Part shown: in pieces, positions 22,717 to 26,827 of the stretch
Numbering within the stretch: position 1 is the first letter of the stretch
How the letters are laid out: each line of letters starts with the position of its first letter
From: Anaerolineales bacterium
Lineage (GTDB): Bacteria > Chloroflexota > Anaerolineae > Anaerolineales > Villigracilaceae
Length of the DNA stretch: 38,742 nt
Assembly (NCBI GenBank): GCA_020060235.1
Contig: JAGVAO010000279.1
Location: forward strand, 1-38,742
Direction: 5' to 3'
The notes under the pieces: generated by a model
What the model was told of the DNA's origin: nothing
The model's database searches: none
The model's input: only the letters and a program-made list of their open reading frames with translations
Program-made: the position numbers and the translations under genes

Positions 22717-24012
22717 ATGACATCTTCGCGCATCCCCGGCTTTTACAACCTGTCCCTGGCTGAACGCTTGTCCCGGGCCGCTTCCGCCGCGGACCAACCC
22801 CACGAAACGCTTGCCCCCTGGACGACCGGCGGACTCTCCCCTGAGGCCGCCGACCACATGATAGAGAACGTCATCGGCATGCACAGCCTGCCCCTGGGCC
22901 TGGGCCTGAACTTCCTCGTCAATGGGCGCGAGGTGCTGGTGCCGATGGCGGTCGAGGAGCCTTCGGTGGTGGCCGGGGCGTCGTTTATGGCAAAGTTGGC
23001 CCGCGCCGGGGGCGGATTCAGCGCCACCACCAGCGAACCGCTCATGATTGGGCAAATGCAGGTAATTAACCTGGTCAATCTTGAAGAGGCCAAATTTAAA
23101 ATTTACGAGAAAAAGGATGAGTTGCTGGCCGAAGCCGATTCGATTGACCCCGTCCTAAAAAAATTTGGCGGCGGCGCAAGAGACCTCGAGGTTCGAACCA
23201 TCGAGGATTCGGCTATCGGCGGCTTCCTCGTCATCCACCTCGTTTATGATGTGCGCGATGCAATGGGCGCAAACGCGGTCAACACCGCTTGCGAGCGCCT
23301 GGCCCCGCGCGTGGAAGAAATCACCGGCGGCAAAGTCCACTTGCGGATTTTGTCAAACCTGGCCGACCGGCGCATTGCGCGGGCGCGGTGTACGGTTCCG
23401 GTGAAAGAACTTGAATTTGGTAAGGGCGACCCAGCGGGTCGTCCCTACAGCGGCGAAACCGTGCGTGACGGAATCATCGCCGCCTATGCTTTCGCCGCCG
23501 CTGACCCATATCGCGCCGCGACCCACAATAAGGGCATCATGAACGGCGTCGATGCGGTGGTGCTGGCGACCGGCAACGACTGGCGCGCCATCGAGGCCGG
23601 GGCGCACGCTTATGCTGCCCGCTCGGGGCGCTACACCAGCCTGAGTACTTGGGGCAAGGATTCCGAAGGCAACCTGGTCGGTACGCTCGAAATGCCGATG
23701 GCGGTCGGCATCATTGGCGGGGCGACCAAAGTCCATCCGGCGGCAAAGGCGGCCATCCAGTTGATGGGCGTCAAAACGGCCTCCGAACTGGCCGAAATCA
23801 TTGTCTCGGTTGGGCTGGCCCAAAACCTGGCGGCCCTGCGCGCCCTGGCGACTGAGGGCATCCAGCGCGGACATATGTCCCTGCATGCCCGCCAGGTGGC
23901 GATTGCCGCCGGGGCCGAAGGCGAACTGATAGAAAAAGTTGCCGCCCAGATGGTGGCCGAGAAAACCGTCCGCATTGACCGGGCCGAGGAAATTATCAAA
24001 AATTGGAAATAA
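22717..24012 (+). CDS. mvaA: Hydroxymethylglutaryl-CoA reductase, class II type
   Basis: 431 residues from ATG 22717 (AAGG six nt upstream); an in-frame TTG at 22693 gives an unconserved extension. It converts HMG-CoA to mevalonate with NAD(P)H. Catalytic residues match Pseudomonas mevalonii class II enzyme: Glu81 (EEPSVVAG), Lys272 (THNKGIMNG), Asp288 (GNDW) and His386 (RGHMSLHAR). Relative to the known Glu83/Lys267/Asp283/His381 the offset shifts by +7 between Glu and Lys. That fits the extra segment [10 protein letters not shown] (about 235-244), which is encoded by a palindromic repeat. First gene of the mevalonate cassette. Confidence 0.94.
   Translation: MTSSRIPGFYNLSLAERLSRAASAADQPHETLAPWTTGGLSPEAADHMIENVIGMHSLPLGLGLNFLVNGREVLVPMAVEEPSVVAGASFMAKLARAGGGFSATTSEPLMIGQMQVINLVNLEEAKFKIYEKKDELLAEADSIDPVLKKFGGGARDLEVRTIEDSAIGGFLVIHLVYDVRDAMGANAVNTACERLAPRVEEITGGKVHLRILSNLADRRIARARCTVPVKELEFGKGDPAGRPYSGETVRDGIIAAYAFAAADPYRAATHNKGIMNGVDAVVLATGNDWRAIEAGAHAYAARSGRYTSLSTWGKDSEGNLVGTLEMPMAVGIIGGATKVHPAAKAAIQLMGVKTASELAEIIVSVGLAQNLAALRALATEGIQRGHMSLHARQVAIAAGAEGELIEKVAAQMVAEKTVRIDRAEEIIKNWK
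23421..23448. repeat. Palindromic repeat (GTAGGG...CCCTAC family) in frame inside HMG-CoA reductase
   Basis: TAAGGGCGACCC and GGGTCGTCCCTA form an imperfect palindrome of 28 bp. It is clearly related to the intergenic copies at 24016 and 25128. It is translated as KGDPAGRPY within the reductase. Confidence 0.75.
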
Positions 24013-24058: not shown

Positions 24059-25123
24059 ATGCCAAACACCACTCTTCTAAAACCCAACCGCCCCGTCGGC
24101 ATTACCGGCTACGGGGCCTACGTGCCGCGCTATCGCATCGCGGCCAAAGAAATTGCCCGCGTTTGGGCCGGCGGCAGGGCCGCCCTGCCGGTTAAAGAAA
24201 AAGCTGTGCCCGGCCTCGACGAGGACGTGATAACCATGTCCATCGAAGCGGCGCGCAACGCCATGGCGCGGGCCGAGATTGCGCCCGGCGATTTGCGCGC
24301 CGTCTGGGTCGGCTCGGAATCGCACCCCTACGCTGTCAAGCCGACCTCCACCGTCGTGGCCGAGGCGATTGGGGCTGTCCCCAACGTCCAGGCGGGCGAC
24401 TGGGAATTTGCCTGCAAAGCCGGCACCGAGGCAATGGTGGCTGCGATAGGATTTGTCGGTTCGGGCATGGCCGAATACGCCCTGGCCATCGGCATGGACA
24501 CCGCCCAGGGCAAGCCCGGCGACGCGCTCGAATATACTGCTGCGGCGGGCGGTGCGGCCTTCGTACTTGGTCCGGCGGAGAACGCCCTGGCGACCATCAA
24601 CGCGACCTATTCTTACGTCACCGATACGCCTGATTTCTGGCGGCGCGAATACCAGAAATATCCCGAACATGGCGTGCGCTTTACCGGCGAACCGGCTTAC
24701 TTCCAGCACATTACCTCGGCGGGCAAGACCATGATGGAAGAATTGGGCACCACTGCCAAAGACTACAAATGGGCGGTTTTCCACCAGCCGAACACCAAAT
24801 TTCCGCAGAAGGCTGGGCAAATGCTCGGTTTTACGCCCGAGCAAATTGCCCCCGGCCTGCTCGTGACGGTCATTGGCAACACCTATTCGGGCGCGGCCAT
24901 CATCGGCCTGACCGCCATCCTGGATATTGCCGAACCCGGCGACCGCATCCTGCTGGTTTCTTTCGGCTCCGGGGCCGGGTCGGACGCGATGGACATCACC
25001 GTGACCGATAAAATCACCTCCCGTCGCGACCGGGCCACCAAGACCCAGGAATACATTGCCCGCCGCACCGAAATCGACTACGCCACCTACGCCCGCTATC
25101 GCGGCAAAATTACGATGAAATAA
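24059..25123 (+). CDS. Hydroxymethylglutaryl-CoA synthase, archaeal type
   Basis: 354 residues, the short archaeal form. It condenses acetyl-CoA with acetoacetyl-CoA. Visible are the N-terminal [32 protein letters not shown], catalytic Glu87 ([14 protein letters not shown]), nucleophile Cys119 ([10 protein letters not shown]) and His242 ([10 protein letters not shown]). All three catalytic residues are intact. In archaea this enzyme forms a complex with a thiolase and a DUF35 protein, and both follow here. The start is the ATG 14 nt after the palindromic repeat. Confidence 0.93.
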
Positions 25124-25166: not shown

Positions 25167-26327
25167 ATGACAGACGTTGTAATTGCAGGAATTGGACAAA
25201 CAAATATCAACGAACATTGGGACAAAAGCCTGCGCCAGTTGGGGGTTGAGGCCATCCAGGCGGCGCTTGCTGATTCGGGTGGGCTGCAACCGCAGGCCTT
25301 GTTTGTCGGCAATATGTTTGCGCCCAACCTTTCGCGCCAGGCGCACCTGGGCGTGCTGCTGGCCGATTTTGCCGGCCTGCGCGGCATCGAGGCGGTGACA
25401 GTCGAGGCAGCGGGGGCATCCGGTGGCGCGGCCTTGCGCCAGGGTTACCTGGCTGTCAAAAGCGGAATGGTCGACGTGGCCCTGGTGGTCGGCGTCGAAA
25501 AAATGACCGATGTCGTCGGCTCGGAGAACGAATCAGCATTGGCAACCGTCTCGGATAGCGATTATGAATCGGTGCAGGGGCTGACTCCCGCCGGGCAGGC
25601 GGCCCTGCTGATGCGCCGCTATATGCACGAATACGGCGTCCCGGCGGATGGTTTTGCCGGTTTCGCGCTGGCGGCCCACGCGCACGGGGCGGGCAACCCC
25701 AGGGCCATGTTCCAGAAGGCCATCAAGCCCGAACTGTACGCCAGGGCCGAGATGGTCAGTGACCCGCTCAATATGTTCGACATTGCCCCAAATGCGGATG
25801 GCGCTGCCGCGCTCGTCCTGACCCGCCGCTCGCTCCTGCCCCGCGACTTTGTTCATCCGCTGGTGGCGATTGCCGGCTCCGCCGTTTCGACGGATATGCT
25901 GGCCCTGCATGACCGCCACGATTTGCTGCACTTCGAATCGGTGCAGATTGCGACTGCCAAGGCCCTACGCCAGGCCGAAATTTCGCTGGAGCAGGTTGGC
26001 TTTTTGGAATATCACGATGCTTTCAGCATTTTTGCCGCACTCTCGCTTGAGGCAGCCGGGTTTGCGCCCCGCGGCCAGGGCTGGAAAATGGCCGCCGATG
26101 GCGCGATAGGCCTGGGCGGGAAACTGCCCTGCGCCACGATGGGCGGGTTGAAGGCGCGCGGCAACCCCGGCGGGGCTGCGGGCGTTGTCCAGGCTGTCGA
26201 AGCGGCGACCCAACTGCGGGGGAGTGCGGGCGCGAATCAGTTAAACGGAATCTGCTACGGGATGATTCAGTCACTTGGCGGACCAGCATCCACAGCCGTT
26301 GTCCATATCCTTGAAAAAGTTGCCTGA
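25167..26327 (+). CDS. Archaeal-type thiolase-like protein lacking the catalytic cysteine
   Basis: 386 residues, aligning over the full length with archaeal acetoacetyl-CoA thiolases of the thiolase/HMG-CoA synthase/DUF35 complex. The nucleophile motif VEAACASGG reads VEAAGASGG, with Gly83 (codon GGG) in place of Cys. The HDAF motif (His283) is kept. The usual NPSGGLKARGHP reads CATMGGLKARGNP, so the GHP histidine is Asn333, and the late AHNVGG segment reads CYGMIQSLGG. Flanking family sequence is well conserved and the frame is intact, so it is probably expressed but not a normal thiolase. It may be a structural or channelling partner of the synthase. Confidence 0.85.
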   Translation: MTDVVIAGIGQTNINEHWDKSLRQLGVEAIQAALADSGGLQPQALFVGNMFAPNLSRQAHLGVLLADFAGLRGIEAVTVEAAGASGGAALRQGYLAVKSGMVDVALVVGVEKMTDVVGSENESALATVSDSDYESVQGLTPAGQAALLMRRYMHEYGVPADGFAGFALAAHAHGAGNPRAMFQKAIKPELYARAEMVSDPLNMFDIAPNADGAAALVLTRRSLLPRDFVHPLVAIAGSAVSTDMLALHDRHDLLHFESVQIATAKALRQAEISLEQVGFLEYHDAFSIFAALSLEAAGFAPRGQGWKMAADGAIGLGGKLPCATMGGLKARGNPGGAAGVVQAVEAATQLRGSAGANQLNGICYGMIQSLGGPASTAVVHILEKVA

Positions 26328-26413: not shown

Positions 26414-26827
26414 ATGGAAATCCCGCGCCATTGGCGATTGAAAGCACAACGATATGGACTGGTCGGCGAAGTTTGCCCGCACTGCGATGTCAAGATTTTT
26501 CCGCCCCGCGATGTCTGTCCCGATTGCGGCGGCGAGGCCAAAACCACCTTTGCCTTTAGTGGCAAGGGTGCTGTGTATTCGTACACGACCATCTATGAAG
26601 CCCCCAGCGGTTACGATGAAATGGCGCCCTACACGGTGGCGCTGGTCAAACTGGACGAAGGCCCGGTGGTGACAGCCCAACTGACCGACCTGGGCGACCA
26701 GTCGATTGAAATCGGTATGCCGGTTGAAATGGTCACGCGCAAGATGCGCAACGACGGCGACGAGCGCGGCATTTTGGTCTACGGGTATAAATTTCGTCCG
26801 CTTGCGTTGGCGGCGCAAGAAAAATGA
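26414..26827 (+). CDS. DUF35 zinc-ribbon/OB-fold protein
   Basis: 137 residues from ATG 26414, set by AAGGAG at 26401-26406; an in-frame ATG at 26366 lacks a ribosome site. The N-terminal rubredoxin-like zinc ribbon has Cys21, Cys24, Cys35 and Cys38 (CPHC, CPDC). An OB fold follows (GKGAVYSYTTIYEAP through GILVYGYKFRP). In archaea this family bridges thiolase and HMG-CoA synthase and binds the CoA tail. A TAGAAT at 26376-26381 could be a weak internal promoter. Confidence 0.93.
   Translation: MEIPRHWRLKAQRYGLVGEVCPHCDVKIFPPRDVCPDCGGEAKTTFAFSGKGAVYSYTTIYEAPSGYDEMAPYTVALVKLDEGPVVTAQLTDLGDQSIEIGMPVEMVTRKMRNDGDERGILVYGYKFRPLALAAQEK

Follow-up and report, generated by a model that had tools for sequence, protein, structure and literature searches.

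The window, that is, the whole stretch of 38,742 nucleotides of Anaerolineales DNA analysed here, holds a mevalonate cassette of four genes in the order HMG-CoA reductase, HMG-CoA synthase (HMGS), thiolase-like gene and DUF35 gene (Table 1). The thiolase-like gene, third in the run, is the focal gene of this report. Its frame is open throughout, and the protein can be aligned over its full length with the thiolases of Pyrococcus (7YVY, E 8e-91) and Methanothermococcus (6ESQ, E 8e-60). In these alignments Gly83, in the motif VEAAGASGG (residues 79–87), lies on the nucleophilic cysteine, and Asn333, in GNP (residues 332–334), lies on the GHP/GHA histidine.

Table 1. Genes of the mevalonate cassette and diagnostic sites of the focal gene (window coordinates)
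Feature	Position	Strand	Basis or remark
HMG-CoA reductase (TIGR00532), ATG at 22717	22717–24012	+	Profile match
Archaeal-type HMG-CoA synthase (TIGR00748, 543 bits), Glu87/Cys119/His242 present	24059–25123	+	
Thiolase-fold pseudoenzyme, 386 aa	25167–26327	+	ORF, alignments, site counts, AlphaFold2 model, structure match
Codon 83 = GGG (Gly), thiolase nucleophile position	25413–25415	+	DNA, alignments
HDAF, residues 283–286	26013–26024	+	His283 present here
Codon 333 = AAC (Asn), GHP histidine replaced	26163–26165	+	DNA, alignment, site counts
SLGG, residues 369–372, where intact relatives have N-I-G-G	26271–26282	+	DNA, alignments
DUF35 protein, zinc ribbon PF12172 and OB fold PF01796, four zinc-ribbon Cys present	26414–26827	+	

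The initial annotation of this DNA had claimed both replacements in an intact frame, and the reading frame, the DNA and the alignments bear it out. It had also singled out the stretch CYGMIQSLGG; the notable change there is from Asn to Ser at position 369, where Ser369 replaces the asparagine of the NxGG motif, and the CYGMIQ part is not the point. The base that it took to be critical, 25411, belongs to codon 82, codon 83 being 25413–25415. Neither a conserved cysteine at the nucleophile position nor a base-call error, two of the objections it had foreseen, was found. The GGG codon is at least two substitutions away from any Cys codon (TGT/TGC), and a sequencing error is rejected because two congeners (L010 and L011, 87–88% identical) and all 50 orthologues described below have no Cys at position 83. 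Among the residues that mark the archaeal SCP2-type acetoacetyl-CoA thiolases, the nucleophilic Cys of VEAAC(A/G)SG and the GHP His are both missing, and the HDxF His is present. The match to the NCBIfam equivalog AcCoTHIOL_METTL reaches 320 bits, below its 600-bit cut-off.

The AlphaFold2 model of the focal protein has a pLDDT of 94.6 and is weakest at residues 121–140. Its best structural match by Z score is the archaeal thiolase/HMGS/DUF35 complex (6ESQ/6ET9), with Z 61.5, an rmsd of 1.4 Å over 384 residues and 35% identity to 6esq_A. The next by Z is 7YVY, at 59.5; its sequence is nearer than that of 6ESQ, and it comes first in Foldseek by E-value. The focal protein is thus predicted with high confidence to fold like the thiolase subunit of the archaeal complex.

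Distribution and origin of the Cys-less form

We found 50 orthologues (L009–L058) in 61 related genomes, and the nucleophilic Cys is absent from all 50, position 83 being mostly Gly but also Glu, Asp, Ser or Gln. None of the 50 matches has an internal stop (that of G055 lies in two contig pieces and that of G047 is cut at a contig end). HMGS was seen in 49 of these 50 genomes, and in the fiftieth, G055, the contig starts inside the HMGS gene. The 11 genomes lacking a Cys-less copy comprise seven with no HMGS match, two in which HMGS appears as a fragment at the end of a contig, and two with an intact copy in the cassette.

The initial annotation had proposed a search for homologues across Chloroflexota, and this search shows that Cys-less, HMGS-linked forms are widespread. 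Of 301 Chloroflexota genomes sampled evenly across the phylum, 65 carry an archaeal-type HMGS, and the linked thiolase could be read in 64, of which 53 lack the Cys and 11 have it; in the 65th, G296, it is cut at a contig end. A larger alignment, with identical proteins removed, contains 149 HMGS-linked thiolases, 24 with the Cys and 125 without, the latter having 88 G, 19 D, 13 E, 3 Q and 2 S at position 83. This set adds the best 80 loci of a wider contig scan and leans towards HMGS close to the focal one, so that the 64 thiolases of the even sample are the less biased set. The titles of those best 80 loci are of Chloroflexota only, archaeal cassettes being outside the survey. A further 18 loci read later are outside the alignment, as are proteins shorter than 300 aa, namely L151 (frameshifted) and L176 (contig end). 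In G352 (L151/L233), the frame of the Cys-less thiolase is broken in the assembly, by error or by real loss. The Cys-less cassette protein also occurs in the named strains Leptolinea tardivitalis (L189) and Thermanaerothrix daxensis (L207). Among the open-licence papers listed by literature searches, no title or abstract opening concerned a Cys-less thiolase in a mevalonate operon.

In a 127-row tree built with the catalytic columns removed, the Cys-less cassette proteins form one clade (SH-aLRT 98), at a fork that also takes in L146, a long branch with Thr at the nucleophile position and no adjacent HMGS seen. The clade is recovered with SH-aLRT 95 under LG+C20 in a 97-row IQ-TREE tree, again with the catalytic columns removed, which is restricted to rows of at least 350 aa and excludes L060, L061, L075–L077, L146 and the PDB rows including 4yzo. 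On the latter tree a single change between Cys and non-Cys suffices. Both trees are quick searches without bootstrap. As judged from these sequences, catalysis was probably lost once, and early, among the Chloroflexota sampled.

Pairwise omega between Cys-less proteins is 0.05–0.11 in nine of ten pairs and 0.23 in the tenth, a distant pair. The intact cassette thiolase gives 0.04–0.11 (three pairs), and the intact paralogue 0.06–0.07 in three pairs and 0.19 in a fourth. The HMGS of the same ten Cys-less pairs gives 0.01–0.08 and is the more conserved partner in nine of them. The low omega therefore indicates that the Cys-less protein is needed, though it is less constrained than HMGS. With its catalytic residues gone and the protein under purifying selection, it qualifies, at the level of sequence, as a pseudoenzyme. 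Recent decay of a single gene is rejected by the low omega together with the single old origin. The broader idea that the gene is degrading or an artefact, with no present role, can point to the broken frame in one MAG (G352, L151), but it is refuted by the selection and distribution data, namely the low omega, the lack of any stop in 50 matches and the single old origin, and we regard it as scarcely credible.

Residues lost and kept

Site counts were made on a set reduced to 85% identity, comprising 31 intact and 105 Cys-less proteins and leaving out L060, L061, L075–L077, L146 and the PDB rows. Cys83 is present in 31/31 intact and 0/105 Cys-less proteins, His333 in 31/31 against 5 of the 104 Cys-less proteins with a residue there, and Asn369 in 28/31 against 15/104. 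His283 is present in 31/31 intact and 57/105 Cys-less proteins, the remaining 48 having S, Y, F, T, D, W or C at this position. Just 4 of the 127 Cys-less proteins have both histidines. The intact relatives share 87 invariant positions, and at 46 of these the residue is still found in 95% or more of the Cys-less set. Losses are strong at 83, 283, 333 and their neighbours, among others, and positions 83, 283, 285, 333 and 335 rank with the most relaxed when compared with the intact relatives. The active-site motif residues differ widely from lineage to lineage, and no new invariant polar residue was seen in these relaxed motifs of the Cys-less set. Conserved nearby are Asp284 (105/105), Glu281 (102/105) and Ala84, which is invariant. 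Given His283 in 57 and Asp284 in all 105, some acid–base chemistry may remain, and the use of Gly, Asp or Glu instead of Ala at position 83 may be more than drift.

The kept residues lend some support to a repurposed enzyme, in which the thiolase fold and DUF35 would carry out a new acyl-CoA chemistry (a retro-aldol reaction like that of Ltp2 and Sal, or malonyl-CoA decarboxylation) that feeds HMGS. There is also precedent, since in CtSal, as excerpted from PMC12329534, the nucleophile position is likewise Gly and the partner is a DUF35 domain, and the same excerpt reports weak malonyl-CoA decarboxylation by TbSLP. However, the Tyr-Asp signature of Ltp2, Sal and TbSLP is absent, position 283 being His in 57/105 and mixed in 48, and the most relaxed positions are those of the active site, with no new invariant polar residue there. 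We consider a repurposed enzyme unlikely. An aldolase of the Ltp2/Sal type is rejected by motif, as the focal protein has HDAF instead of YD(H/C)(F/Y) and Tyr occurs at position 283 in 8/105 of the clade; the DUF35 partner of such aldolases does have a counterpart in the cassette.

A related proposal is that the ancestral substrate-channelling complex was remodelled, its first active site becoming a new functional site. There, acetoacetyl-CoA or malonyl-CoA would be taken up from the cell pool and either processed or handed on to HMGS, which would make it a new entry to the mevalonate pathway in much of Chloroflexota. The features that speak for it are a nucleophile position occupied by a small or acidic residue and the lineage-specific pockets, and we hold it to be a minor possibility. 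Alternatively, the dead site could be an allosteric sensor, with acetyl-CoA, CoA or a different acyl-CoA as its ligand, that would tune HMGS rather than feed it. Cys-less proteins of the thiolase fold can indeed bind acetoacetyl-CoA, going by the PDB titles of 1M1O (a C89A mutant) and 5AB6 (TbSLP), but the wide variation of the active-site motifs between lineages is unlike a conserved effector site and makes a sensor quite improbable.

Other Cys-less thiolase-like genes were encountered. L075, L076 and L077 form another set, with Pro at the nucleophile position and with GHP and HDAF kept. L060 (on C258 of the focal genome), L241 and L243 have YDPF, which resembles the Tyr-Asp signature of Ltp2 and Sal; C258 also holds two DUF35 domains.

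Partner genes and the supply of acetoacetyl-CoA

For 125 of 127 distinct Cys-less proteins, an HMGS gene of the same strand lies no more than 3 kb upstream, and DUF35 lies downstream within 3.5 kb, within the sequence examined, for 87 of the 127. The synthase keeps Glu87, Cys119 and His242 both beside Cys-less thiolases (119/119) and beside intact ones (23/23), so the statement of the initial annotation that its catalytic residues are preserved holds across the clade. The DUF35 protein is less uniform. In L127–L144 (families f35, f45, f71 and f74), it has none of the four zinc-ribbon Cys in 18/18 cassettes examined, whereas this holds for 0/86 of the other cassettes; the 18 combine an intact HMGS with a thiolase that is likewise dead. 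Degeneration thus went further in the lineages of these four families. Of the three DUF35 matches in the focal genome, one belongs to the cassette and the other two are on C258, with none on the contig of the intact paralogue.

Several cassettes depart from the common order. G040 (L051, G040:C177) has HMGS, a Cys-less copy, DUF35 and an intact copy in one run, and family f2 (L070, L071) has the order HMGS, DUF35, intact copy. At L160, L164, L169, L208 and L220, DUF35 directly follows HMGS; each of these genomes has an intact homologue elsewhere, and none has a match of the Cys-less type at E 1e-20. These variants, together with the 11 genomes lacking a Cys-less copy, therefore indicate that HMGS nearly always has a thiolase-fold partner, dead or alive. 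The two exceptions, both in MAG-based genomes that may be incomplete, are G351 (L148), where HMGS is present and no thiolase homologue was found, and G356 (L192), where an Asp-type dead copy is not adjacent to HMGS.

A second, intact thiolase elsewhere in the genome, which the initial annotation had suggested looking for, was found. The focal genome has four classical thiolases (TIGR01930) and an intact paralogue, 47% identical, at G000:C100 (L059:4998–6149), flanked by genes for a response regulator and an HNH endonuclease. Classical thiolases occur in 84/84 genomes with a Cys-less cassette protein (in eight of these the cassette thiolase was read later, with Gly in 8/8) versus 8/12 with an intact cassette thiolase (Fisher p 1.5e-4, the genomes being related). 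Adding five genomes with an intact homologue and G356 gives 85/85 versus 13/17 (p ~6e-4 by hand calculation, the genomes again being related). The presence of a classical thiolase is nonetheless weak evidence, because such enzymes are common anyway, occurring in 14/14 further genomes (7/7 and 7/7). The four intact-cassette genomes without one belong to three families (G037 and G051 in one, G188, and G094), and in these acetoacetyl-CoA may come mainly from the cassette enzyme.

A second homologue, 44–53% identical, is present in 37 of 50 genomes with a Cys-less copy; the minority of these homologues that were read at the nucleophile position have the Cys. This invites the idea of a heteromer, in which the dead subunit is the passive half of an active thiolase formed with the intact paralogue and the mixed assembly channels to HMGS. 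The single run of both copies at L051 would fit such an arrangement. Against it, 13 of the 50 genomes lack the paralogue, that of the focal genome sits among unrelated genes, and comparable homologues are present where HMGS is absent (G005, G019, G032 and G053). We therefore find a heteromer improbable.

Proposed role and comparison with known complexes

The complex of thiolase, HMGS and DUF35 is a model case of an unfavourable Claisen condensation pulled by channelling. We propose that the focal protein is probably a pseudo-thiolase, formerly the acetoacetyl-CoA thiolase of an archaeal-type complex and now kept as a non-catalytic partner of HMGS. The initial annotation expected a partner unable to do Claisen chemistry beside a working synthase, and the single-origin, selected, Cys-less and HMGS-linked clade supports this expectation from sequence data. 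Among its suggestions, that of a scaffold or acyl-CoA binder, with acetoacetyl-CoA coming from other thiolases, fits best.

The proposed sequence of events begins with the loss of the Cys, the GHP His and the NxGG Asn, read directly from the sequences, and the retention of the protein under purifying selection beside an intact synthase. Its fold is predicted with high confidence to be that of the thiolase subunit. The protein would dock with HMGS and DUF35, contribute its share of a three-protein CoA site like that of the archaeal complex, and hold incoming acetoacetyl-CoA there for HMGS. The acetoacetyl-CoA would be supplied by classical thiolases, or by the intact SCP2-type paralogue where present, as their co-occurrence suggests. 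We infer that the reaction moved to free thiolases while the dead subunit stayed, HMGS having need of its surface and probably also of what it contributes to the CoA site.

The case is larger than the initial annotation saw, as an entire lineage appears to carry a pseudoenzyme where the mevalonate pathway begins, with a likely partner function. A large lineage that has the genes of the complex minus its first reaction offers a natural way to find out whether the assembly serves channelling or simply forms the CoA site of HMGS. Furthermore, the label 'thiolase' would be wrong for most of the HMGS-linked genes sampled (53/64 in the even sample of the phylum). This bears on metabolic models and on the use of such operons in isoprenoid engineering.

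Among the closest known systems is the archaeal complex 6ESQ, which shares with the focal cassette the thiolase fold and the same partner genes, HMGS and DUF35, whereas the focal protein lacks the nucleophile Cys, the GHA/GHP His and the NxGG Asn. In 6ESQ, according to excerpts of PMC6392133, CoA is bound at an interface formed by residues of all three proteins, and this common site is described in an excerpt of PMC12329534 as the basis of channelling. ST0096 of Sulfolobus tokodaii (4YZO) is likewise an archaeal thiolase-like protein without the Cys (Ser), but it keeps GHP and HD and groups with the Cys-less L075 and L076, outside the focal clade. TbSLP (5AB6, 5AB7) has an SCP2 fold without the thiolase cysteines and binds acetoacetyl-CoA and malonyl-CoA (PDB titles; excerpt of PMC12329534), but is eukaryotic, has a YDCF motif and lacks DUF35. 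The steroid aldolases Ltp2 and Sal (6OK1, 9MYR) combine an SCP2-thiolase fold with DUF35, and Sal has Gly at the nucleophile position (excerpt of PMC12329534), but their catalytic Tyr-Asp motif is absent in the focal protein and their operon is different. PhlABC, or PpATase (5M3K, 5MG5), is also a trio of HMGS-like, DUF35 and thiolase-like proteins in which one condensing-enzyme subunit is apparently kept for assembly, the HMGS-like subunit being thought to be required for it in the excerpted text of PMC6392133. In PhlABC it is the thiolase-like PhlC (Cys88) that is active, and the HMGS-like PhlA takes no active part in the acyl transfer. This is the reverse of the focal cassette and makes PhlABC a mirror image of the case described here.
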